A stretch of 43,872 bases of DNA from a virus. Location: positions 1-43,872 of IMG/VR virus record IMGVR_UViG_3300020185_000092. The stretch is one strand, 5' to 3'. The position numbers and the translations under genes were made by a program. Positions 9,725 through 27,711 of the stretch are shown piece by piece; the stretch's first letter is position 1; every line of letters begins with the position of its first letter. The notes beneath the pieces are model-generated. The model had not been told where the DNA came from and searched no databases. It worked only from the letters and a program-made list of their open reading frames with translations.

Positions 9725-10009
9725 TTAATCGTTGTTCAGTCCGATATATTCTTTATCCCATACATCATAGAATACTGGACCTCCTCTCATCTGTGCTAAA
9801 GGTAGAATGTTGTAATCGAACCATTCAATAGATTCTAACGAGTTCCACTTGTGAGCCCGAGAAAGACAGTCAAGAAGTTCGGAAACATTGTATACTAATC
9901 TACCCTCAGTCGATAGAAACTCTTTTATAGCACTATCGAAATCTTCTTCTGGTTCTAAGAATATGAACTCATATCCTTCTTTCTCTGCTTCTTCTATTAT
10001 ATTGTTCAC
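9725..10009 (-). CDS. Small acidic protein of unknown function (94 aa)
   Basis: Starts at GTG 10009 with a strong AAAGGAG seven bases upstream, which decides the start. The protein is acidic (EEAEKEGYEFIFLEPEEDFD at its N-terminus) and rich in aromatic residues near its end (WFDYNILP, FYDVWDKEYIG). No membrane segment, cysteine cluster or known motif was seen. It is the first gene of a unit with the Mre11-Rad50 fusion (26 bp downstream) and is preceded by a sigma70-like promoter. It is probably an early protein. Confidence 0.8.
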   Translation of the reverse strand: MNNIIEEAEKEGYEFIFLEPEEDFDSAIKEFLSTEGRLVYNVSELLDCLSRAHKWNSLESIEWFDYNILPLAQMRGGPVFYDVWDKEYIGLNND

Positions 10010-10127: not shown

Positions 10128-10934
10128 CTATTCGACGTATTGTATTCTAAGAGACTTTGTCGCACCAGACTTATTTGTTATGACGATTGTTTTTGTTCCT
10201 GCACCAGCAGGAGTCACTTTGGAATAGGTTGTAGCCGGGTCAGGAGATTGAATTACGTATTCATCAGAAGCAGTACTCTCAGCCTCAATAAATTCTAATT
10301 GTGAGACTTGGCTATTTGTTCCAGAACTGTTTAGCGTGATGTATAGCCTATAGCAGGTATAAGAAGTGCCATTATTAACAGTAAAATACTTTTTGCCTTC
10401 TTGATCCCAAACTATATTAGTCCAAGTTCCCAACGTAACAAATGAGGAAAAATTAGAACTATTTGAGGCGTGCAATTCAAAATTCTTTGGCCCTAAATAA
10501 GTTGACGGTGCGCTAAATCTCGTATTTATTGCAAATTTGTTAATACATATTGATCCAACTCCACCATTTGCAGAGAAATCATAGCCTATCCACTGAGGCA
10601 CGCCGCCATTTGAAGCCCATCCGAGCTCACCGACAAATTGATCGTTAAATGGTGCGCCAGCAACAGAAGCGGCATTTCTTGACGATTGCAATATATCACC
10701 ACTCGGAGTAGTATCACCTGTCATGTCGGGCGTTGAGTCGGTTGTGCTAGTGTTTGTTGATCCGTCTGCTATCGGAGTGCCTGCTGGAATCAAAAACGAA
10801 ACAGAGGTTACGCCAAGTGCTGATATATTAACTGATGCATCATTTGCTATACCAGCTGAGTCTGCACTTGTTAAGGTTAAACCACCGCCACCAACGGCGG
10901 AACAAGGTAAGAAAAATCCATCATTAAATCCCAT
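10128..10934 (-). CDS. Putative receptor-binding/adhesin protein with F5/8 type C (discoidin)-like domain
   Basis: A 268-aa protein starting MGFNDGFF at ATG 10934. The longer open frame (to 10976) is rejected because ATG 10934 overlaps the stop of the leader ORF as TAATG, exactly as in the two neighbouring cassettes. The N-terminal part is Ser/Thr/Gly-rich. Residues about 80-215 resemble the jelly-roll discoidin/F5-8C fold: SVAGAPFNDQFVGELGW, VPQWIGYDFS, INKFAINTR, PKNFELHASNSSNFSSF, YRLYITLN, VSQLEFIE. This fold usually binds glycans. A short beta-rich tail follows. The location after a tail-fibre gene cluster supports host-surface binding. Domain recognition is by pattern only. Confidence 0.82.
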   Translation of the reverse strand: MGFNDGFFLPCSAVGGGGLTLTSADSAGIANDASVNISALGVTSVSFLIPAGTPIADGSTNTSTTDSTPDMTGDTTPSGDILQSSRNAASVAGAPFNDQFVGELGWASNGGVPQWIGYDFSANGGVGSICINKFAINTRFSAPSTYLGPKNFELHASNSSNFSSFVTLGTWTNIVWDQEGKKYFTVNNGTSYTCYRLYITLNSSGTNSQVSQLEFIEAESTASDEYVIQSPDPATTYSKVTPAGAGTKTIVITNKSGATKSLRIQYVE

Positions 10935-11071
10935 TATATTACTCCCAATAATCCAGTGTAAGATTCGCTGCGACATACCAACAACAGTCTAGAAAGTATG
11001 TACTGGTAAGTGTAGGATTGATATTTACCAACATGATATAAACCATGAGTATAATTTAAATTATCAGACAT
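10934..11071 (-). CDS. Leader ORF A: 45-aa internally deleted paralogue of the 128-aa cassette protein
   Basis: Starts at ATG 11071 after a GAGG Shine-Dalgarno site and ends at TAA overlapping the next start (TAATG). The N-terminus MSDNLNYTHGLYHVGKYQ matches MSANLNYTHGLGHVGSYQ of the 128-aa gene at 16504-16890. The C-terminus YTGLLGVI aligns with its end, WSGSAGVG. About 80 residues of the middle are absent. DNA upstream and over the first codons is nearly identical to the full copy. It may persist because it couples translation to the adhesin gene. Whether the peptide has a function is unknown. Confidence 0.7.
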   Translation of the reverse strand: MSDNLNYTHGLYHVGKYQSYTYQYILSRLLLVCRSESYTGLLGVI

Positions 11072-11098
11072 TTTTTATCCTCACAAATGTATTTTATA

Positions 11099-11106
11099 AT
11101 AAATAG
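11099..11106 (-). promoter_or_regulatory. Late promoter-like box of cassette A
   Basis: Minus strand CTATTTAT in the context ACTATTTATTATAAAA, 27 bp upstream of leader ORF A and preceded by the conserved GTTCAGAATGATTA. The same arrangement occurs at 14767-14774 and 16917-16924. The position just downstream of a strong terminator fits a promoter, although the box differs from the T4 late consensus TATAAATA. Confidence 0.5.
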
Positions 11107-11136
11107 TGGTATATAATCATTCTGAACTAATACTAC

Positions 11137-11170
11137 AAAAACAACCAATATGCTAGTACTGGTTGTTTTT
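11137..11170 (-). terminator. Bidirectional rho-independent terminator
   Basis: A perfect 11-bp inverted repeat (AAAAACAACCA / TGGTTGTTTTT, arms 11137-11147 and 11160-11170, 12-nt loop) gives a stem ending in T5 on either strand. It lies 61 bp after the gene that ends at 11232. Its 3' arm is homologous to the terminator at 16962-16985. Confidence 0.8.
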
Positions 11171-11231
11171 ATAATATATATAGAATAAATTCCTTCGATA
11201 TTTTTAGATTAGTAAAGTGGATGTTTCTTGA

Positions 11232-12134
11232 TTATCCTGGATAATTTCCTAGGATGTACCATTGATCAGATCCACAAACAATTGTTAAGGACGCCTTATT
11301 AGTGTTTACTAGTTTGTCGCCAGCGTCGTCAATGTCTTCAGATCCATATGGATTGATCTCAATATTGTTACTACTGGCGTTTGAGGACGCGTCTTTGATT
11401 ATTAATATTCTTCCGAGATGGTTTGCTTTTGCAGGTAGATCTATTCTCCTAGGAGAACCTGTCCCTGCAACGGCTATGATATAATCATCATCAGCGACAG
11501 TATATGGGAAACTAGAGACTTCCCTGATCATGACTCTCTGAGCAGAGCCTTGAAGAGTTGTTCCATTTAAGATCACATTACCATCGAACACTGCATCATT
11601 GTTGCCGTCTGTTGTACCCGACACATAGAATGCGATGCTACTATCTAAACTTAATGCGCGATCAGTCACACTAGTTAGGCCTTTTGTGAACTTGGCTGTT
11701 CCGTCATCCATGATGCTGAACGGGTAAGTAAAGTCTCCGCTAGATTCTGCGCTATTGATAAAAAAGTCTCCGCCTCTTCCGGGCGATATAAAGATATACT
11801 CCTCAGAGTTATAGCCCAACCTAGCATCTTGAGATGAAGCTGCAGCTCCTTCTTGAAAAGAAATGAAATTTAAAGCAGTATTACCTTTGTTCGTGAACCT
11901 AATACCTTCTTGGTTTCCCGGTGTTAATTGAATACCACCAGAAACAAACAAGCTTGCATTCGTTGGAGAGTCTGGTATGTAGACTCCGTTGTTGTTAACT
12001 TGGAGACGTACAGCACCACCAGTTTGTAGATCAATCTGATCCTCATCAAAATCAATTAGCGTATTTCTTTGGGCGTCATCTTCAAATTCGATATCCCCGA
12101 AACTACGCTTTCCCTTCGACATTTTATAAGCCAC
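11232..12134 (-). CDS. Tail-fibre/adhesin-like structural protein (300 aa)
   Basis: Starts at GTG 12134 with GGGAG about seven bases upstream, giving MAYKMSKG. MAYK is also the start of the next upstream gene (12238-14139). The middle is beta-rich and repetitive in character (LQVNNNGVYIPD, SLFVSGGIQLTPG, FSIMDDGTAKFTKG), typical of phage fibre shafts. The last 95 residues (YTVADDDYIIAVAGTGS..RRIDLPA..ILIIKDASSNASSNNIEI..QWYILGNY) form a domain shared with the C-termini of the 12238 and 14240 genes. That domain is probably the fibre tip. A terminator follows and a T-rich promoter-like region precedes it, so it is a separate transcription unit. Confidence 0.85.
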   Translation of the reverse strand: MAYKMSKGKRSFGDIEFEDDAQRNTLIDFDEDQIDLQTGGAVRLQVNNNGVYIPDSPTNASLFVSGGIQLTPGNQEGIRFTNKGNTALNFISFQEGAAASSQDARLGYNSEEYIFISPGRGGDFFINSAESSGDFTYPFSIMDDGTAKFTKGLTSVTDRALSLDSSIAFYVSGTTDGNNDAVFDGNVILNGTTLQGSAQRVMIREVSSFPYTVADDDYIIAVAGTGSPRRIDLPAKANHLGRILIIKDASSNASSNNIEINPYGSEDIDDAGDKLVNTNKASLTIVCGSDQWYILGNYPG

Positions 12135-12152
12135 ACTCTTCTCCCTTTAAAC

Positions 12153-12160
12153 ATAAATAG
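12153..12160 (-). promoter_or_regulatory. Late promoter-like box before the 300-aa fibre gene
   Basis: Minus strand CTATTTAT (then GTTTAAAGGGAG) 18 bp upstream of the GTG start, directly after the strong terminator of the preceding gene. It is the same octamer as before the adhesin leaders. Confidence 0.45.
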
Positions 12161-12167
12161 ACTATAA

Positions 12168-12201
12168 ATAAAAAAAAGGGCTGAGCTTTCGCCCAACCCT
12201 T
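12168..12201 (-). terminator. Strong rho-independent terminator after the repeat-fibre gene
   Basis: Arms 12191-12201 and 12176-12186 pair over 11 positions (AAGGGTTGGGC with GCTCAGCCCTT, two G-U pairs), with a GAAA tetraloop and at least eight T after the stem on the minus strand. Located 37 bp beyond the stop of the 633-aa gene. Confidence 0.9.
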
Positions 12202-12237
12202 CCAAGAAAAAATATCTTGTAATGTAATAAATGAATA

Positions 12238-14139
12238 TTACATTGCGAACCAATCAGTACCGTTAGAAACACAAGATACTGCTGCACCTTGGGTTTGTAA
12301 TGCTAAGATCTGATCAACAGCAAATTCAAGCTTCTCAGATGAAGCAGGAGCGACTTCACAGTCATTACCACTAACATCGATTCTTTTGAACTTAAAGATC
12401 TTACCAGAATTTACTCCACCGGCTGCTGGGAGAGTCATTCTTACATTACCAGACGAAGCATCAATAAGGATCGTTCTGAAAACATCACTGCTTTGGATGG
12501 TTAGAGTATCAGTACTAGTCCTTGTTACAACTACATCACGTACTGTAACGCCAGTCAAGCCAGCACCACCACCAACAAATTCAGTAGCAGCTAAAGAACC
12601 AGCAGCTGAATCGAAAGTTAAGTTAGTACCTGTTTTTGCTTGTTGATCACCAGTAGCAGCATTGAAGAAAGCTACATTACAAGATGTATCAACAGACTCA
12701 TCAGCAACAGCTATTAATTGAGGAACGATGTCCACTGAGGCATCAAAAGCAACACCACCGATGTTTCTAGCGTTAACAAGAGTTCCGTTCAAGTCACCGA
12801 TGAAAGACGAAGCCTTCAAAGGAACCGAAGAAGCCAAGTTAGCAGCACTATCAGCCATCATAAATGTTACTGGAGTTCCAGTAGTACCAATAGTCAAACC
12901 ATTTCCATCAGCAGCAGTTGCTCCTTTGGCCATAGTAATGTTAGCGTCTTCAACAGAAAGTTCAGAAACATTAAGAGTTGTAGTTACACCATTAACAGTA
13001 AGATCTCCAGAAACAATCATGTCGCCAGAGAAAGTTCTGTTTCCACCGATTGTAGCTTTAAGATCCAATCCACCAGATTCAAGAATCAAAGATGTATTAA
13101 GTGCATCGTTATTCAATTTAAGAGATAGTTGACTACCGTCAAGTTGAGTACCTTTTGCAAAATTAACAGTATTAGCATTAAGCATTGAACCTTGAACTTT
13201 ACCTGCTTGAATTGCAATCACACCAGCATTAGAGATATTAGCATCTCCGGAAGGAGCAACTGCTACTGGACGATTAGAAGCATTACCCATTAGGAATCTT
13301 CCATCAGCAACATTAGCCATTTTATCAAGAGTTACATTACCATCACGAATCTTAGCTGTTTCAACTGCGTCGTTAGCTAGAGCAGCTGTTTCAACTGAAC
13401 CAAGAGCATAATGTTCTGCATCAATAGAGCCAGCAGCATAATGTTCTGAATTAACAGCATCATCAGCAATTTTAGTTCCATCAACTGAATCAGCAGCTAA
13501 TTTAGCTAAAGTAATTTGAGCATTACCAACGTGAGCAGTTAAGATCGATTGATTTACATATTGATCAGAGCCAACTGAGTCAACACTCATGTGAGCAAGA
13601 TCAACTGCACCAGCAATGAGCTGAGCACTATCGACAGAGTTTGCACTCATGTGAGCAAGATCAACTGCACCAGCAATGAGCTGAGCACTATCGACTGAGT
13701 TTGTAGCCATCTTAGCTAAAGTAATTTGAGCATCAGCAATGTGCTCTGTATCGATTGAAAGTCCAGCATAATGTTCTGAATCAATTGCATTATCAGCAAT
13801 TTTATCTCCATCAACTGAATCTGCAGCCATTTTATCTAGAGTAATTTGAGCATCAGCAATGTGCTCTGTATCAATAGATCCAGCAGCATAATGTTCTGAA
13901 TCAATTGCATTATCAGCAATTTTATCTCCATCAACTGCATCAGCAGCAAGACGAGCGTTGTTAATTCCACCGTCTTCAATCTTTGCACCCGGTAGTTGTC
14001 CAGAATTCATTTCTGCAACGATTGAATCAACAGTTGCTTGAGTTACGTCAGCAAAATCTGCATCCGAACCTTTAATTTGTCCTGTGGACTCGACAGCTCC
14101 GCCGAGTTTCGCGGAACCTATTTGAAATTTGTAAGCCAT
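12238..14139 (-). CDS. Repeat-rich tail fibre protein (633 aa)
   Basis: Starts MAYKFQIGSAKLGG at ATG 14139 with AGGAGG upstream. Residues about 45-275 are degenerate 10-residue units in 20-aa and 40-aa periods, such as DSVDGDKIADNAIDSEHYA and GSIDTEHIADAQITLDKMA, a pattern known from phage fibre shafts that form trimeric beta or mixed coils. The middle contains structural beta segments (TFSGDMIVSGDLTVNGVTT, a recurrent phage fibre motif). The C-terminal 100 residues (DTLTIQSSDVFRTILIDASS..RMTLPAAGG..IFKFKRIDVSGNDCEV..CVSNGTDWFAM) are a tip domain shared with two neighbouring genes. A strong terminator follows. Attachment role inferred from these features. Confidence 0.88.
   Translation of the reverse strand: MAYKFQIGSAKLGGAVESTGQIKGSDADFADVTQATVDSIVAEMNSGQLPGAKIEDGGINNARLAADAVDGDKIADNAIDSEHYAAGSIDTEHIADAQITLDKMAADSVDGDKIADNAIDSEHYAGLSIDTEHIADAQITLAKMATNSVDSAQLIAGAVDLAHMSANSVDSAQLIAGAVDLAHMSVDSVGSDQYVNQSILTAHVGNAQITLAKLAADSVDGTKIADDAVNSEHYAAGSIDAEHYALGSVETAALANDAVETAKIRDGNVTLDKMANVADGRFLMGNASNRPVAVAPSGDANISNAGVIAIQAGKVQGSMLNANTVNFAKGTQLDGSQLSLKLNNDALNTSLILESGGLDLKATIGGNRTFSGDMIVSGDLTVNGVTTTLNVSELSVEDANITMAKGATAADGNGLTIGTTGTPVTFMMADSAANLASSVPLKASSFIGDLNGTLVNARNIGGVAFDASVDIVPQLIAVADESVDTSCNVAFFNAATGDQQAKTGTNLTFDSAAGSLAATEFVGGGAGLTGVTVRDVVVTRTSTDTLTIQSSDVFRTILIDASSGNVRMTLPAAGGVNSGKIFKFKRIDVSGNDCEVAPASSEKLEFAVDQILALQTQGAAVSCVSNGTDWFAM
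13370..13990 (-). repeat. Coding tandem repeats in the tail-fibre shaft
   Basis: Repeat units with 60-bp and 120-bp periods. Two copies at 13584-13635 and 13644-13695 are identical over 52 bp. A 120-bp period links 13711-13830 with 13831-13950, including the same stretch encoding NAIDSEHYA. Frame is preserved throughout, so copy-number change would alter shaft length without frameshift. Confidence 0.9.
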
Positions 14140-14168
14140 ATTTAAATCCTCCTAAGATTATAATATTA

Positions 14169-14176
14169 ATAAATAA
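14169..14176 (-). promoter_or_regulatory. Variant late promoter-like box before the repeat-fibre gene
   Basis: Minus strand TTATTTAT (followed by TAATATTATAATC) 29 bp upstream of ATG 14139, one mismatch to the CTATTTAT box. Spacing matches the other cassettes. Confidence 0.3.
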
Positions 14177-14239
14177 GCAATCGGAAAGTAACAATACTCC
14201 CCAATCATCTTAAGTAGTTCGCGGCTTAAGTAGAAGGAG

Positions 14240-14632
14240 TTAGTAGACGAAGAATTTGTCGATTCCGTTAGAGTATATATTGACGGCACCGAAAGGAGAT
14301 TGTAAATCTATTGACGCCGATCCTTCGATCTTATCTGGCTCTGTAGTTTTAATTGTTATATTATAATCATCTGCGTTTCCTGCTTCATCCTTAATAACAA
14401 AGCTGGCTCCGTTAACAAATGTCGAGGCTGACGGTAATCTAATGTCCAATGCTGATGAAGCAGATACGGCTAAAATCATGTCATCAACTGATGAGGTTAT
14501 TGTCGAAGTCACCGATGTTCTAGAGTAAGCTATCGAAGATCCGCTTCCAGAAGATCCTCCACCAGCACCAGGAGGCTCACTAGAGGATGAATTAGTATTA
14601 CTATAGGAAGAAAACCCAACACCAAATCCCAT
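14240..14632 (-). CDS. Short adhesin: flexible N-terminus plus shared fibre-tip domain (130 aa)
   Basis: ATG 14632 overlaps the stop of leader ORF B as TAATG. The N-terminus MGFGVGFSSYS resembles MGFNDGFFLPCS of the 10934 gene. A Ser/Gly/Pro-rich linker (SSSSEPPGAGGGSSGSGSS) covers residues 14-35. The rest is essentially one tip domain: DDMILAVSASSALDIRLPSA, FVIKDEAGNADDYNITIK, then IYSNGIDKFFVY. The same domain ends the two larger fibre genes. The short form may be an accessory tip or a decayed remnant, but the frame is intact. Confidence 0.82.
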   Translation of the reverse strand: MGFGVGFSSYSNTNSSSSEPPGAGGGSSGSGSSIAYSRTSVTSTITSSVDDMILAVSASSALDIRLPSASTFVNGASFVIKDEAGNADDYNITIKTTEPDKIEGSASIDLQSPFGAVNIYSNGIDKFFVY

Positions 14633-14739
14633 TATTCTACTCCATATGTACCAGTGTATAGTTCACGGTTATTTATAAACAATAATAACCTACAACATAC
14701 ATAGTCGCGACCATAAGTGTATTTTGATATCTCAGACAT
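14632..14739 (-). CDS. Leader ORF B: 35-aa internally deleted paralogue of the cassette protein
   Basis: Starts at ATG 14739 after GAGG and ends in a TAATG overlap with the adhesin gene. MSEISKYTYG at the N-terminus and LYTGTYGVE at the C-terminus correspond to MSANLNYTHG and WSGSAGVG of the full 128-aa gene and to leader ORF A. The middle is missing. Divergence is greater than in A, suggesting an older event. On the minus strand 14670-14677 within it reads TATAAATA, the exact T4 late-promoter box, 38 bp before the adhesin start. Confidence 0.6.
   Translation of the reverse strand: MSEISKYTYGRDYVCCRLLLFINNRELYTGTYGVE
14670..14677 (-). promoter_or_regulatory. T4-type late promoter box within leader ORF B
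   Basis: Exact TATAAATA on the coding strand, 38 bp upstream of ATG 14632. It could give the short adhesin its own late transcript. One match in A+T-rich DNA, so uncertain. Confidence 0.35.
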
Positions 14740-14766
14740 TTTTTATCCTCACAGGCTCATTTTGTA

Positions 14767-14774
14767 ATAAATAG
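14767..14774 (-). promoter_or_regulatory. Late promoter-like box of cassette B
   Basis: Minus strand ACTATTTATTACAAAA, 27 bp before leader ORF B and preceded by GTTCATAATGACTA, matching the boxes of cassettes A and C. Confidence 0.5.
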
Positions 14775-14806
14775 TGTGTAGTAGTCATTATGAACATATG
14801 ATAAAA

Positions 14807-14823
14807 AAACAGTTAGTATGTTT
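14807..14823 (-). terminator. Weak terminator-like hairpin after the 545-aa gene
   Basis: Minus strand AAACA-loop-TGTTT (5 bp) running into T7. The stem is short, but the site is 44 bp after the stop at 14867. It occupies the same place as the strong terminators in cassettes A and C. Confidence 0.4.
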
Positions 14824-14866
14824 TAATAAGCTATTCTACGTTTTCGATTCCTAAATCTATTTCTCT

Positions 14867-16504
14867 CTATGTCGGTGGAATATCTAGTACAAAGAAGTCA
14901 CAACCTGTAGTAACAAGTGCCGGCCCTCCACCTGAAACGCGTTTACCTGTGAAAAAGATATCACTCTTCTCACCGACACGCAGAAATGTCGTAAGAGGGA
15001 AGGTGGAAGCACCTTCAAAGTCACTTAGGGACCACTCTTCTTTGTGCGATCCAAATGGAGATGTAACTATATCCGCTTCGCAGTATTGATATAGTTTTAA
15101 ATCCGCACTATTGCCTTGGCCGACTGAGGCATAAATGCTTGTAATATAGACCTCTTTGCCTGCTGGAACTGTGAAAATAGCTGATTTTAGTAGGCCCTGT
15201 CCCACAGACACGACACCCATGATAGCTCCACCAGTCAGCTCAAAGGTTATGACTCCAGTGTTTTTACCATGATATGTTCCGGTTGTTAAAACTTGTGCCT
15301 CATTAAGTCGGAAACAGTTAGCGACCGTGAGAGTAGAAACGCCTGTTCCTGCTAATGTTAATGTCTCCGTGACTTCATTTAGGTTCTCATCAAGGAAGGT
15401 TACTTCTACAGTTCTAGCGCCTGATCCTGCTGCCGTATCATTAGTGTTCCCTCCAGCTTTAACACGTAGTTTCTGGTTCTTTATTTGGTTCGGAATCCAT
15501 TTTGTTGAATAAGGCCAGATAGTTTCTTCTACGGTTCCTACAGTTTCATTAGTACCATAAATTCTCCCACTCTTTTCATAAGCAAGGAGCCCTACATTTC
15601 TCTCAGTATTGTAATCCGAGACTGATCGTACTAAACGAACATCTTCGTTTCCGGTAAGTATCTGGTTTGTGGTTGCAGTTAGATCAATGTGAGCAGTCTG
15701 CATAAATGTTTGCAAGGAGAATGTAGTCTGAGCGATACTATTGTTTTCATACTTGACCCTAAAGTACTTGGCCGCAACACCTACCGTTCTAGGGCTAGCA
15801 ACCGCTAAATCTAAAATATGAGACCTAATACCAAGCCCTGTTGCCGGTGAAGTAGCATCATGGGAAAACTCTATAGATATCCAGCCTGTTTGTTCCGATA
15901 CCTCTCCTGTTACAGATGTGGTGATGCCTAGGTATCCATCGGTTTCGACCCAAGAACCAACGAATTCCTCCATTGAACCCAATGGTGTAATAGTACTATT
16001 GAGTGGTTCAAATCCAGACTTACGATCATTGACGAACTCGTTGCTTGGGTTCTTTCCGGCAGTTACGGCTCTTACACCTATGATGGGTGTATTTCCATCC
16101 ATATAACTATCTACAGTATATGAGGTACCAAGAGTTCCGTTTGTCGAGAATGTAGTCTGAAGTGAAAATGTACCTCCCACTTGTGTAGTGGTCCCGTTGA
16201 TATAGGTCACCCTAACGAACGCTTCTACGCGCCTGAATGTTATGGGATAGAAGAATGTTGCATCTGTAATAATGTATTCAACGTATGATGACGTAATGCC
16301 TCCGTCAGTGGAGGTCTCAATTCTTAGAGTACCGTCTGTAGCCGTATCGGATTGAATAGATACTTCAATCATATTATATGCTACCACATCCTCCCAAGAA
16401 GACCCGACAAATGTAGCGCTAGCGGCTAGAGGAGTTGTGGTACTATTTTCTGTGCTTATTGAATTTGCTGAAATAGCACCAATTCCTGAGTGTGAATAAC
16501 CCAC
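14867..16504 (-). CDS. Virion/tail-associated beta-rich protein with a duplicated domain (545 aa)
   Basis: Start is GTG 16504, overlapping the upstream stop as TAGTG. The product starts MGYSHSGIGAIS. Two related domains lie in tandem: residues about 22-125 (TPLAASATFVGSSWEDV..YNMIEVSIQSD..AFVRVTYINGTT..FSLQTTF) and about 172-270 (TPLGSMEEFVGSWVETDGY..GWISIEFSHD..KYFRVKYENNSI..FSLQTFM). The C-terminal half is beta-rich (RTVEVTFLDENLNEVTETL, KEVYITSIYASVGQG). Similar proteins occur in phage tails, from memory, but no specific function can be named. Context is the adhesin cassette region. Confidence 0.8.
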   Translation of the reverse strand: MGYSHSGIGAISANSISTENSTTTPLAASATFVGSSWEDVVAYNMIEVSIQSDTATDGTLRIETSTDGGITSSYVEYIITDATFFYPITFRRVEAFVRVTYINGTTTQVGGTFSLQTTFSTNGTLGTSYTVDSYMDGNTPIIGVRAVTAGKNPSNEFVNDRKSGFEPLNSTITPLGSMEEFVGSWVETDGYLGITTSVTGEVSEQTGWISIEFSHDATSPATGLGIRSHILDLAVASPRTVGVAAKYFRVKYENNSIAQTTFSLQTFMQTAHIDLTATTNQILTGNEDVRLVRSVSDYNTERNVGLLAYEKSGRIYGTNETVGTVEETIWPYSTKWIPNQIKNQKLRVKAGGNTNDTAAGSGARTVEVTFLDENLNEVTETLTLAGTGVSTLTVANCFRLNEAQVLTTGTYHGKNTGVITFELTGGAIMGVVSVGQGLLKSAIFTVPAGKEVYITSIYASVGQGNSADLKLYQYCEADIVTSPFGSHKEEWSLSDFEGASTFPLTTFLRVGEKSDIFFTGKRVSGGGPALVTTGCDFFVLDIPPT

Positions 16505-16890
16505 TATCCCACTCCTGCGGATCCAGACCAGTTGGAGGGCAATCTATTAGAACTAATACCAGTTAATCCTGCTGCAATTGTAGCAGTACCAGCAGCCGCT
16601 GTTGATAGTAAAAATACTGCAGAAACTTTCCAATCTCCAGAGTATGACTCCGAAGCAGCAAGCTCAATATAATTTACACCAGCAATTCCTAGAGCCGAGA
16701 ATCCAAATTTAATAGGAATAGCAGATGTGTTTTTAATCGTAATGAAGCGAGTAACTGACTCAAAAGATACTTCCAGTGCAGCAGCGCTTGAGGTAGGTAC
16801 TACTAGTCCGGAAGCGATATATGGACGAGCAGAAGCTTGGTATGAACCAACATGGCCTAGACCATGAGTGTAATTTAAATTAGCAGACAT
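16504..16890 (-). CDS. Cassette C first gene: 128-aa structural protein, full-length form of leaders A and B
   Basis: Starts MSANLNYTHGLGHVGSYQ at ATG 16890 with GAGG about 7-9 bp upstream. The body is a compact beta-sandwich-like sequence (FESVTRFITIKNTSAIPIKFGFSALG, YIELAASESYSGDWKVSAVFLLS, AGTATIAAGLTG). It ends WSGSAGVG and overlaps the next gene by TAGTG. The layout (a beta barrel with an Asn/Thr-rich surface) suggests a small virion decoration or fibre-base protein, which is inference. It is the only intact member of a three-copy family in this window. Confidence 0.8.
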   Translation of the reverse strand: MSANLNYTHGLGHVGSYQASARPYIASGLVVPTSSAAALEVSFESVTRFITIKNTSAIPIKFGFSALGIAGVNYIELAASESYSGDWKVSAVFLLSTAAAGTATIAAGLTGISSNRLPSNWSGSAGVG

Positions 16891-16916
16891 TTTTTATCCT
16901 CACAAATGTTTTTATA

Positions 16917-16924
16917 ATAAATAG
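16917..16924 (-). promoter_or_regulatory. Late promoter-like box of cassette C
   Basis: Minus strand ACTATTTATTATAAAA, 26 bp before ATG 16890 and preceded by GTTCAGAATGATTA. It is nearly identical to cassette A over roughly 100 bp. Confidence 0.5.
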
Positions 16925-16952
16925 TAATATATAATCATTCTGAACCAATACT

Positions 16953-16985
16953 AAAAAAAAACAACCAACAGGTATCTGCTGGTTG
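16953..16985 (-). terminator. Strong rho-independent terminator after the tandem nucleotidyltransferases
   Basis: Arms 16976-16985 and 16962-16971 form a 10-bp stem (CAACCAGCAG with CTGTTGGTTG) with a 4-nt loop and nine T afterwards on the minus strand. It ends the transcript of the gene stopping at 16997 and separates it from the fibre cassettes. Confidence 0.9.
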
Positions 16986-16996
16986 CCTATAATGCT

Positions 16997-17824
16997 TTAC
17001 TGTAGTATTTTGGGAACTATATCCTTGGATATTTTTAAAATACCTTTGTATATTTTAATAACCTCTTCGTACTCTTCCTCTGTGGAGCTTGTCTTGAGCC
17101 AATAGTGCAAAGATTCGAAAGAGAATGTATCCTCGATATGCATAGAGTCATACAGCTCCGATAATAGCTCTAGAGCGTCTTCTACTGTGTCGACAGTCCA
17201 AATAGATGTCTTCTTCTCTTTGATGCCGTGAGCGTGACTGAAGGTGTGATTCTTCGCAGATAAGCAAGCAATCATAAACTGTGTTCTATGTAATCCTTTC
17301 AAACCACTCTCTCCGTGAGAATAATAAGCCCACTCAAGCCAGTCAATGTTCCCCACTACCCAATCAATCTGCACTGATTGTTCTGTTTGGCCATGCTCAT
17401 CATGTTGTTGGAATAGTGTGAACATAGTTCCCGGACCTACCTTCTTTAGGTCGACCTGCACTCCATTATCGCAAAGCTTCTTAGCAATCAGAGTAAGCAA
17501 TGCTCGAACCTTGCACATTTCCGTAGTTGCTGTTCTTGCTCTTTTCTCTATCTTATGGAATGCTGTTAGCCAATCTTCATACTCAAACCCCCATTTCTTT
17601 ATCTCTGCTTCTGTGAAAGATCTAACTAGGTGTGTTCTATCTATCGCCAAGTCTATATCCCCTGAGCTTGGAGTTTTCCCAGTAGAACCTACAGGACGAA
17701 GGAATGTGAGTGACCATGCTTTCATAGGAAATATCCTTCCTAACTCTTGCGTATATGCTGCTATCGTTGTATTCACACGAGCTAGAGGAATTCTAGATGT
17801 GTTTTCAAAAATGTTGCCTCCCAT
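16997..17824 (-). CDS. Pol-beta-type nucleotidyltransferase, second of a tandem pair (275 aa)
   Basis: Residues 45-62 (VGSTGKTPSSGDIDLAID) are the G-S...D-x-D signature of the nucleotidyltransferase superfamily, with D56 and D58 as metal ligands. A third carboxylate is likely D154 in VQIDWVVG. The C-terminal half is helical. The start MGGNIFENTSRI at ATG 17824 has AGGAGG upstream. It follows the other nucleotidyltransferase by 14 bp, in the same transcript, and is followed by a strong terminator. The acceptor is unknown. Members of this superfamily modify tRNA, proteins or small molecules. MGGN...TSRI-type proteins recur in T4-like marine phages, from memory. Confidence 0.85.
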   Translation of the reverse strand: MGGNIFENTSRIPLARVNTTIAAYTQELGRIFPMKAWSLTFLRPVGSTGKTPSSGDIDLAIDRTHLVRSFTEAEIKKWGFEYEDWLTAFHKIEKRARTATTEMCKVRALLTLIAKKLCDNGVQVDLKKVGPGTMFTLFQQHDEHGQTEQSVQIDWVVGNIDWLEWAYYSHGESGLKGLHRTQFMIACLSAKNHTFSHAHGIKEKKTSIWTVDTVEDALELLSELYDSMHIEDTFSFESLHYWLKTSSTEEEYEEVIKIYKGILKISKDIVPKILQ

Positions 17825-18761: not shown

Positions 18762-19697
18762 TTAAATATTCTCCAGTTCCTTCTGGAAGAAATACATATC
18801 TCCCTCGATCTTATTTGCATCAAGAAGTCTTGCATTAAATTCTCTATTTCCCATTGAACTAACATCTTTATCATCGATTGGTACCATGCTAACTTCAACA
18901 TCATACTTCAATAAAGACTTGATAATCCAGTCTGACTTGCTTTCGGCATCCTGATCGAGAGCCATGAACACAGGTGTATCGTGCATAGCTATCGCTTGGA
19001 ATAGTCTAGATTTCTCCCTTAGCGTCGAGCCTAGGATTGGTATCGTGTTCTCGTTCGAAGCAATAGCATCAAAGGCTCCCTCGACAATGATGATTGGTTC
19101 ATCCCAATCAATATTAAGTTCGTTGAATATGATGTCTCTATCGATGCGAGGATTTAGATACTTAAGGCTATGCCCGACATAACTCCTAGCAATGAAATAA
19201 TTAAGATCCCCTTCCACGTCAAACGATGGTATGATGATTCTTCCTCCATAACGGCCCTCCTTACAGTAACCAATCTTCCATTTAAGGATATCTCTCCTAC
19301 CTATACCTCTGGAGGATAAGTAGCGAAATGCATATGAAGATCCTCGAGGCAAGTCCTTATTGCATAAAGAGATGAACTCTTTAGGCATATCAGGAATCAT
19401 CTTCTCTTCTATGTTATTATATTCTTTGAACAATTCATCGAAGTCAGATAGATTGACCAACCCTTGAAGTTCTCTGTATTTTTCTTTCTGTTGGTATGTT
19501 CCGAATTTCCGAACGATGCGGTAAATGTTTTTACCCCTCTCGTCACAAACCCAGCAATGATAGCCCATTTTGAAGTTTATTGCGAATTTCTTTTTATGAT
19601 GATTACAATAAGGACAGGTGAAATAATATTCGTCCTGTCCTTTTTTACTTGGATATCCCAAGATTTGTGTTAAAATTCTTACCTTATCTGCTTCCAT
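18762..19697 (-). CDS. DNA primase (zinc-binding and Toprim domains; 311 aa)
   Basis: Synthesises RNA primers for lagging-strand replication. The start is placed at ATG 19697, with AGGAGG eight bases upstream. A longer frame to 19781 would run back across the promoter and into the homing endonuclease gene. The zinc-binding domain has C28, C31, C48 and C51 (CPYC...HCWVC). The Toprim domain shows IIIVEGAFDAI (E206) and FMALDQD (D248, D250). The middle motif YGGRIIIPSFD is the RNA-polymerase domain signature of DnaG-like/gp61-like primases. No helicase domain is attached, so the partner helicase must lie elsewhere. A decayed copy of the 5' end lies upstream at 20516-20656. Confidence 0.93.
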   Translation of the reverse strand: MEADKVRILTQILGYPSKKGQDEYYFTCPYCNHHKKKFAINFKMGYHCWVCDERGKNIYRIVRKFGTYQQKEKYRELQGLVNLSDFDELFKEYNNIEEKMIPDMPKEFISLCNKDLPRGSSYAFRYLSSRGIGRRDILKWKIGYCKEGRYGGRIIIPSFDVEGDLNYFIARSYVGHSLKYLNPRIDRDIIFNELNIDWDEPIIIVEGAFDAIASNENTIPILGSTLREKSRLFQAIAMHDTPVFMALDQDAESKSDWIIKSLLKYDVEVSMVPIDDKDVSSMGNREFNARLLDANKIEGDMYFFQKELENI

Positions 19698-19752: not shown

Positions 19753-20316
19753 TTAGTAATTAAATCTTTCTGCTCTCTCAATTGCCCTTGTTATCGTTGT
19801 TGGATGAACTCCAATTTCTTTTGCGATGGAACATTTACTTTCCCCCGCCTTCCACCTATCTTTAAAGGAAGCCTCTTGTTCGTCTGAAAACCTTTTGTTT
19901 GCCTTGCTTATCTTTCTTCGCCACTCTTCGCTAACCGGTTTTCCATAGTGAGGGTGGTTTTCTCCGGATAGTTTTTCAGATAAAAGTTGTTTGACTTCTT
20001 CTGTGTGATTCAACCCAGCCATAGGTGAGCCGGCAACCTTACTAATGTTGTAGATGTCTTGGTGTCCACCAAAAGCTTTATCGAGATATTCTTGCTCTCT
20101 TATGAGAAGTTTTGACTTACTAACTTCCTCAAGTATCACAAACTCAAATTGACTTTCGCCATGTTTGTCGTAAGAGTTTTGGAGATGGATGTTTGCGTGA
20201 GTTCCACTTCTCAAATTTGATTTGTGATGCCTCCACCTTCTTTTAATGTTGTTTGAAGATCCAATGTAAAATTTTCCATTGACCTTATTTGTTATTTTGT
20301 AAATTCCCAAGTTCAT
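19753..20316 (-). CDS. GIY-YIG homing endonuclease (Seg-like, 187 aa)
   Basis: The N-terminus GIYKITNKVNGKFYIGSSNN carries both halves of the GIY-YIG motif, followed by the family Arg-rich helix and a catalytic Glu candidate in LIREQEYLD. Residues about 103-145 (HTEEVKQLLSEKLSGENHP..GKPVSEEWRRKIS) are NUMOD3-type DNA-contact repeats. The last 35 residues (CSIAKEIGVHPTTITRAIER) are a helix-turn-helix. Such freestanding endonucleases cut related genomes lacking the element and spread by repair. ATG 20316 lies inside the end of the RHH ORF (32-bp overlap). The gene sits exactly between a broken primase 5' fragment and the intact primase. Confidence 0.94.
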   Translation of the reverse strand: MNLGIYKITNKVNGKFYIGSSNNIKRRWRHHKSNLRSGTHANIHLQNSYDKHGESQFEFVILEEVSKSKLLIREQEYLDKAFGGHQDIYNISKVAGSPMAGLNHTEEVKQLLSEKLSGENHPHYGKPVSEEWRRKISKANKRFSDEQEASFKDRWKAGESKCSIAKEIGVHPTTITRAIERAERFNY

Positions 20317-27703: not shown

Positions 27704-27711
27704 ATAAATAG
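27704..27711 (-). promoter_or_regulatory. Late promoter-like box inside the structural block
   Basis: Minus strand CTATTTATTAAAGAAT, 20 bp before ATG 27683, followed by AGGAG. It lies in the only gap of over 40 bp in the structural operon. Confidence 0.45.

Follow-up and report, generated by a model that had tools for sequence, protein, structure and literature searches.

The tail-gene island of an uncultured virus contig (IMG/VR virus record IMGVR_UViG_3300020185_000092, 43,872 bases, here called the window) contains three copies, A, B and C, of a composite unit that places a promoter-like box and a leader open reading frame (ORF) in front of a tail gene. In unit C the leader is a full protein of 128 amino acids, here called C128, whereas the leaders of A and B are mini-leaders of 45 and 35 amino acids that lack the folded C128 body. 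We favor the interpretation, with a probability of roughly 0.55, that A and B are copies of the C128 transcription unit from which C128 has been lost, while the promoter, the start sites and a Gly-Phe tag at the beginning of the next gene have been kept. The main genes of the window are located on the minus strand. The parts of the units are listed below.

16959-16988, minus strand: unit C, intrinsic terminator of the upstream gene, 13-bp stem plus T run, found by program
16932-16945, minus strand: unit C, GTTCAGAATGATTA box, with three copies in the window, all inside the units
16908-16925, minus strand: unit C, late-promoter-like box ACTATTTATTATAAAA, a clade-wide coding-strand motif
16504-16890, minus strand: unit C, C128, full-length virion-type protein ending in GVG-stop, Shine-Dalgarno sequence TGAGG just upstream
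14867-16504, minus strand: unit C, downstream tail or virion gene, 545 amino acids (VGYSHSG...), GTG start, TAGTG overlap; phrog_8198, weak matches to cyanophage virion proteins
14782-14830, minus strand: unit B, weak terminator-like stretch and GTTCATAATGACTA box
14759-14775, minus strand: unit B, late-promoter-like box ACTATTTATTACAAAA
14632-14739, minus strand: unit B, mini-leader of 35 amino acids, C128-like front end, TAATG overlap
14240-14632, minus strand: unit B, tail gene, 130 amino acids (MGFGVGFSS...); phrog_20556 baseplate protein, E 3e-5
11137-11170, minus strand: unit A, terminator-like stem AAAAACAACCA...TTGGTTGTTTTT, identified by eye
11114-11127, minus strand: unit A, GTTCAGAATGATTA box
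11092-11107, minus strand: unit A, late-promoter-like box ACTATTTATTATAAAA
10934-11071, minus strand: unit A, mini-leader of 45 amino acids, residues 1-31 matching C128, TAATG overlap
10128-10934, minus strand: unit A, tail gene, 268 amino acids (MGFNDGF...); phrog_17517 tail protein, E 7e-10

The same elements follow each other in all three units: a terminator, GTTCAnAATGAnTA, ACTATTTATTAyAAAA, TGAGGATAAAAAATGTC, an ORF, and an overlap of its stop codon with the start of a gene beginning with MGF or VGY (TAATG in A and B, TAGTG in C). This order, and a terminator that is weak in one copy of three, had been proposed in the original prediction, and each element was found at its place on the minus strand, with clear stems in A and C and a weak one in B. 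With a loop longer than 8, the stem in A escaped the terminator scan. The TGAGGATAAAAAATGTC sequence occurs exactly three times in the record, always on the minus strand (reversed control, 0), and GTTCANAATGANTA is limited in the window to the minus-strand positions 11127, 14795 and 16945. The DNA-level alignment suggested as a check confirmed the relationship: the 62 nucleotides upstream of the start codon are 95% identical between A and C, 83% between A and B, and 81% between B and C, with alignment scores of 105, 62 and 54 versus a shuffle maximum of 30. At the other end of the leaders, the joint GGAGTnnnATArTGGG is the sole sequence common to all three units.

C128 belongs to a family with about 100 homologs in viral contigs. 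The unit C ORF matches the full-length family profile over its whole length (E 8e-59); the ORF itself is in the seed alignment, and the relatives match independently by TBLASTN. The family is characterized by the conserved motifs YxxGLGxVGSYQ at the start and NWSGSxGVG-stop at the end. The predicted structure is a beta-sandwich with a mean predicted local distance difference test score (pLDDT) of 86 and less certain ends, and a fold search with this model returned beta-sandwich matches with Z up to 8.7, too weak for naming a function. No significant match to C128 was obtained in PHROGs, Pfam or PDB, and none was identified among cultured phages or in bacterial genomes. Tandem arrays of C128-type genes are present elsewhere in related genomes (L120, L104, L118 and similar loci), and the last gene of the array is often fused to a protein of 340-530 amino acids.

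The A leader is clearly related to C128. About 31 codons match (protein shuffle p <5e-4), and a phmmer search matched its residues 1-32 to C128 in the window (E 6e-7) and to the homolog in the related locus L122 (E 0.002), followed by other family members. It retains YTHGLYHVGKYQ, which is similar to the conserved C128 start. The B leader has a putative match to C128 over about 14 codons, with a protein shuffle p of 0.065 and a DNA score of 36 versus a shuffle maximum of 16. Over their final 15 or so codons, A and B are similar to one another (p 0.0015; shared tail RLLL...E.YTG..GV) and not to the end of C128. The similarity between A and B runs into the first eight or so codons of the next gene (MGFxxGF; 20 of 24 bases) and then stops. 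Thus, of the proposal that A and B had been reduced to the two ends of an ORF intact in C, the front end and the joint stand, but an origin of the last codons from C128 is not supported. A derivation of the A tail (SESYTG) from the middle of C128 (SESYSG) was considered and is possible, but a single local match with p 0.0065 is unconvincing. Unit A is C-like in its 5' region and B-like at its tail, a mosaic which suggests recombination or conversion among the units.

The mini-leaders represent a third state beside full C128 and leaderless genes, known only from this one assembled virus. Neither the inspection of about 250 loci nor a pattern scan across the viral collection turned up another mini-leader. 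An exact-pattern scan of viral contigs with the promoter and Shine-Dalgarno sequences combined gave zero matches, and a scan with GGAGTNNNATAATGGGATTT gave 36 stretches, mostly unrelated gene pairs, none of which has a C128-like mini-leader.

To describe the joint behind C128 in the relatives, we used 75 homologs that end in GVG or GIG and have a readable next gene; all counts across relatives are raw, without correction for relatedness. The next gene overlaps C128 by TAATG or TAGTG in 39 cases, starts 3-6 nucleotides further on in 24, is further away in 11 and lies at position -1 in one. The claim that the coupling overlap is kept therefore holds in its exact form for 39 of the 75 pairs, with 24 more in close proximity and 11 uncoupled. 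Among the coupled next genes, at least 15 clusters can be distinguished that show no detectable similarity to one another, in agreement with the expectation that related genomes carry the unit ahead of different genes. These include a family of about 510 amino acids, the types MPQGGFSRDF, RSGFGxKxAKS, MSFNDGFS and MGGRGGGKRF, and singletons such as the 545-amino-acid gene in the window. All 12 of the 12 members examined in the 510-amino-acid family match phrog_1645, a virion structural protein, and a glucanase- or lectin-like beta-sandwich was recognized in this family over residues 38-354, with Z up to 17. This family is the partner of C128 in about 20 relatives, whereas C128 in the window leads a gene that is unrelated to the partners in the relatives.

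The end of C128 also appears to serve the gene behind it. The first glycine codon of GVG-stop is GGA or GGG in 56 of 64 coupled genes, as compared to 17 of 64 for a control glycine in the NWSG motif (p 1.9e-12), and this excess indicates that the C128 end carries the ribosome-binding site of the following gene. Like pairs known to be translationally coupled, these genes combine a stop/start overlap of the TAATG type with a Shine-Dalgarno sequence inside the upstream ORF, whereas a dependence of the second gene on translation of the first is here only putative. Of 100 related records, 18 contain the GGNGTNNNNTARTGGGNT joint pattern, each a single time, and in the loci analyzed it lies where a full C128 gene ends; the window has three copies. 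The next proteins also share a tag, a Gly followed by Phe, Tyr or Leu within residues 2-12, which is present in 52 of 74 as compared to 14% of background genes. Examples of such beginnings behind C128 (L122-L201) and at positions 10934 and 14632 in the window are MGFTDL, MPQGGFSRDF, RSGFGxK and MSFNDGFS. The tag may be a peptide that attaches the protein to the virion.

The promoter-like box was first thought to mark the unit. It is present in all three copies, but ACTATTTATTA turned out to be a general late-promoter-like motif of the clade that also precedes two leaderless fiber genes in the island, and the idea of a box special to the unit was rejected. Across related loci totaling about 1.3 Mb, ACTATTTA/CTATTTAT has 402 sites on the coding strand versus 21 on the opposite strand. 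Of the coding-strand sites, 142 are located at most 70 nucleotides upstream of a start codon, a space that represents 7.7% of the sequence, and mostly 24-30 nucleotides before the start. A strand-biased box at a short, set distance before genes is thus observed, and ACTATTTAT is probably the late promoter of the clade. Example sites are at 27711, 23804 and 12170 in the window (minus strand) and at 11004 in L010. The motif is found within 90 nucleotides upstream of 24 of 35 coupled C128 genes, as compared to 0 of 35 for its reverse complement, and six of the 24 also have a terminator, which makes terminator, promoter, C128 and tail gene a standard arrangement. Since the motif is clade-wide, terminator plus promoter represents ordinary gene-boundary architecture; what sets the units apart is a duplication that takes in flanks, first codons and joint at once.

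Similar to the late promoters of T4, the box is a single short AT-rich element near late genes, on one strand and without a visible -35 element. The T4 late promoter consensus is TATAAATA, while the box here reads ACTATTTAT, or ACTATTTATTA at the units. The strictness of the T4 consensus has been described (PMC2988020). Genes of the MGFGGGFSG type start a few bases past the box, without an evident Shine-Dalgarno sequence, in L004 (minus 4161), L005 (minus 2724), L149 (minus 851) and L156 (minus 422), which raises the possibility of late mRNAs with little or no leader.

Under the favored interpretation, unit C would be the complete cassette, consisting of the terminator of the upstream gene, the late promoter, a Shine-Dalgarno sequence, C128, the embedded Shine-Dalgarno sequence, and the overlapping start of the Gly-Phe-tagged tail gene. 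Late transcription would begin at ACTATTTAT, and ribosomes would load at TGAGG, translate the leader and arrive at GGAGT-TAATG, the start of the tail gene. In the full form C128 and its partner would be made together, and in A and B the tail protein would be made with just a short peptide, the C128 protein being supplied by unit C. The parts retained in A and B would be those needed by the next gene: its own promoter, insulation from the preceding gene, a leader ORF that delivers ribosomes, and the first eight or so codons, which may attach the tail protein to the virion. The common front end would set the timing, and its DNA could act as homology for joining in tail genes. A broader possibility, which we put forward only tentatively, is that the C128 end, the overlapping start and the Gly-Phe tag form a general socket that gives late expression and virion attachment to unrelated host-binding genes across a large group of uncultured phages, and that it has here been copied without its protein, so that the coupling peptides serve the joint alone.

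The slot occupied by the island was compared with its relatives. In L012, the closest relative by primase, it contains C128, a tail gene of 509 amino acids and a lipoprotein-like gene, and in L010 only tRNA-Ala, the lipoprotein-like gene and small ORFs; in L033, C128 and a gene of 510 amino acids form a pair elsewhere, between a homolog of a 170-amino-acid gene and the primase. The content of the slot thus turns over, as expected of an exchange region. The slot in these relatives (L010 5887-7225, L012 11812-15706) carries tRNA-Ala and a lipoprotein-like gene of about 300 amino acids rich in SEPSGEP repeats. The gene pair in L012 also bears on whether the repeat was multiplied by mis-joining during metagenome assembly. 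Repeats of this kind in an uncultured virus contig invite the suspicion, but the three copies clearly differ, each precedes a different intact gene, and L012 has C128 and a tail gene in the same slot, which makes an artifact very improbable.

Several observations weigh against the favored interpretation. The match of B to C128 is short, and the comparison does not tie the tails of the two mini-leaders to the end of C128. The frame of each leader would be open by chance with a probability of about 0.05-0.06, and the two are not independent. Moreover, the differences between A and C over codons 1-18 are distributed as 3, 3 and 3 over the codon positions, with no excess at the third. Among genes with the Gly-Phe tag elsewhere, 17 are located behind a full C128, but six have no adjoining leader ORF, four of them directly behind the promoter motif, which indicates that a leader is not generally required. 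Finally, no swapping of genes A and C at other joints was seen. Searches of viral contigs identified no homolog of gene C (545 amino acids) and one, weak, of gene A, and since homologs behind other joints were not found, the exchange of these genes is untraceable. The idea that the units are homologous joints for swapping receptor-binding genes is supported only in part: many unrelated genes lie behind the joint in relatives, but no recombination event was seen and no breakpoint mapped, and the mosaic is only suggestive.

Much of this is also what would be expected if tail cassettes had been inserted or duplicated near the C128 start, dragging along the promoter and first codons, so that the leaders are neutral relics, open by chance, and only the promoter and the Shine-Dalgarno sequence of the tail gene itself matter. 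The leader RNAs fold no more stably than shuffled sequences, and the same record holds another duplicate of a 5' gene fragment, from the primase. We nevertheless consider this account possible but doubtful, because both copies keep the start codon with its Shine-Dalgarno sequence, an open frame and the exact TAATG overlap, despite a 35% difference in the tail and a length difference of 30 nucleotides. The retained frame of the two leaders is suggestive. The original prediction held that selection acts on the boundary and the coupling and not on the protein body; no protein-level constraint was seen, but the frame and coupling part of the claim depends on these two non-independent ORFs.

The lack of codon-position bias, together with the modest improbability of the open frames, leaves selection on the peptide itself unsupported. 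This also makes a function of the mini-leaders as micropeptides, such as small virion or chaperone pieces with a retained C128 N-terminus, quite unlikely. The YTHGLYHVGKYQ motif kept in A and the tail shared by A and B would fit such a role, but B lacks most of the conserved start, and no homologous short ORF was found in the 250 or so loci.

The terminase of the window is of the T4 type. As judged from best hits, its nearest counterparts in cultured phages are those of Flavobacterium phage immuto and Microcystis phage Mel-JY01 (about 44%), followed by that of Rhodothermus phage RM378 (30%). The window also encodes a fused SbcCD, a T4-type primase and an RNA ligase, and no known RNA family was found in it. 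The island consists of five tail-gene cassettes flanked by genes of 275 amino acids (16997-17824) and 94 amino acids (9725-10009). Three cassettes are opened by the units, and the other two have a terminator and the promoter motif but no leader ORF. The downstream genes are probably host-binding "adhesins," although their profile matches read tail, baseplate or virion protein.

12238-14207, minus strand: leaderless cassette with terminator (14178-14207), TTATTTATTA box and tail fiber gene of 633 amino acids
11232-12203, minus strand: leaderless cassette with terminator (12174-12203), TCTATTTATG box and tail gene of 294-300 amino acids
20522-20638, 19753-20316 and 18762-19682, minus strand: primase-duplicate locus

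The 633-amino-acid gene contains tandem repeats of 30, 60 and 120 bases at 13391-13949, including one 60-base pair that is 98% identical, and its fiber shaft is thus recently expanded. The primase-start duplicate covers 39 residues of the zinc-finger part, is 74% identical to the L010 primase, and precedes a small DNA-binding-like ORF, a GIY-YIG endonuclease gene and then the intact primase. The order is the same in L012 (9072-10918), and L039 and L041 look alike. The arrangement is reminiscent of a homing element which either carries part of a gene as a copy or has left one behind.

The units resemble two known systems. T4-like phages carry PeSLs, composite promoter and stem-loop cassettes regarded as mobile regulatory elements (Arbiol 2010 and Comeau 2014, as summarized in PMC4503421 and PMC3950731). 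They place a terminator stem-loop beside a promoter and recur at several gene boundaries where gene content turns over, and a role in module shuffling with expression maintained has been proposed. In the window, terminator and promoter likewise recur at several gene boundaries, and what the island contains varies from relative to relative, although breakpoints could not be located. The shared box does not coincide with any consensus sigma-70 site; it is of the late type of the clade and not an early sigma-70-like promoter such as PeSLs have. The copies here also continue through the start codon, the leader ORF, the embedded Shine-Dalgarno sequence and the first codons of the next gene, and there are only three, all before tail genes. 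In the Ackermannviridae, tail-spike genes are exchanged at conserved 5' ends (PMC11414711). There too, several receptor-binding genes with a short common 5' end and otherwise different sequences lie side by side, but what they share is a structural N-terminal domain. The units described here share mainly non-coding and start-site DNA, together with about eight codons and the end of another gene. What PMC4503421, PMC3950731 and PMC11414711 describe of the two systems does not include the part made up of start site, coupling and tag.

The evidence comes from one assembled virus for the mini-leaders and from many contigs for the joint. If the interpretation is true, these phages would add or change host-binding proteins without breaking their expression or attachment, by keeping a standard front end and changing the rest. 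In uncultured phages, the signature of C128, joint and tag provides a sequence handle for finding receptor-binding candidates that are unrelated in sequence, and the ACTATTTAT motif provides a late-promoter handle for the clade.

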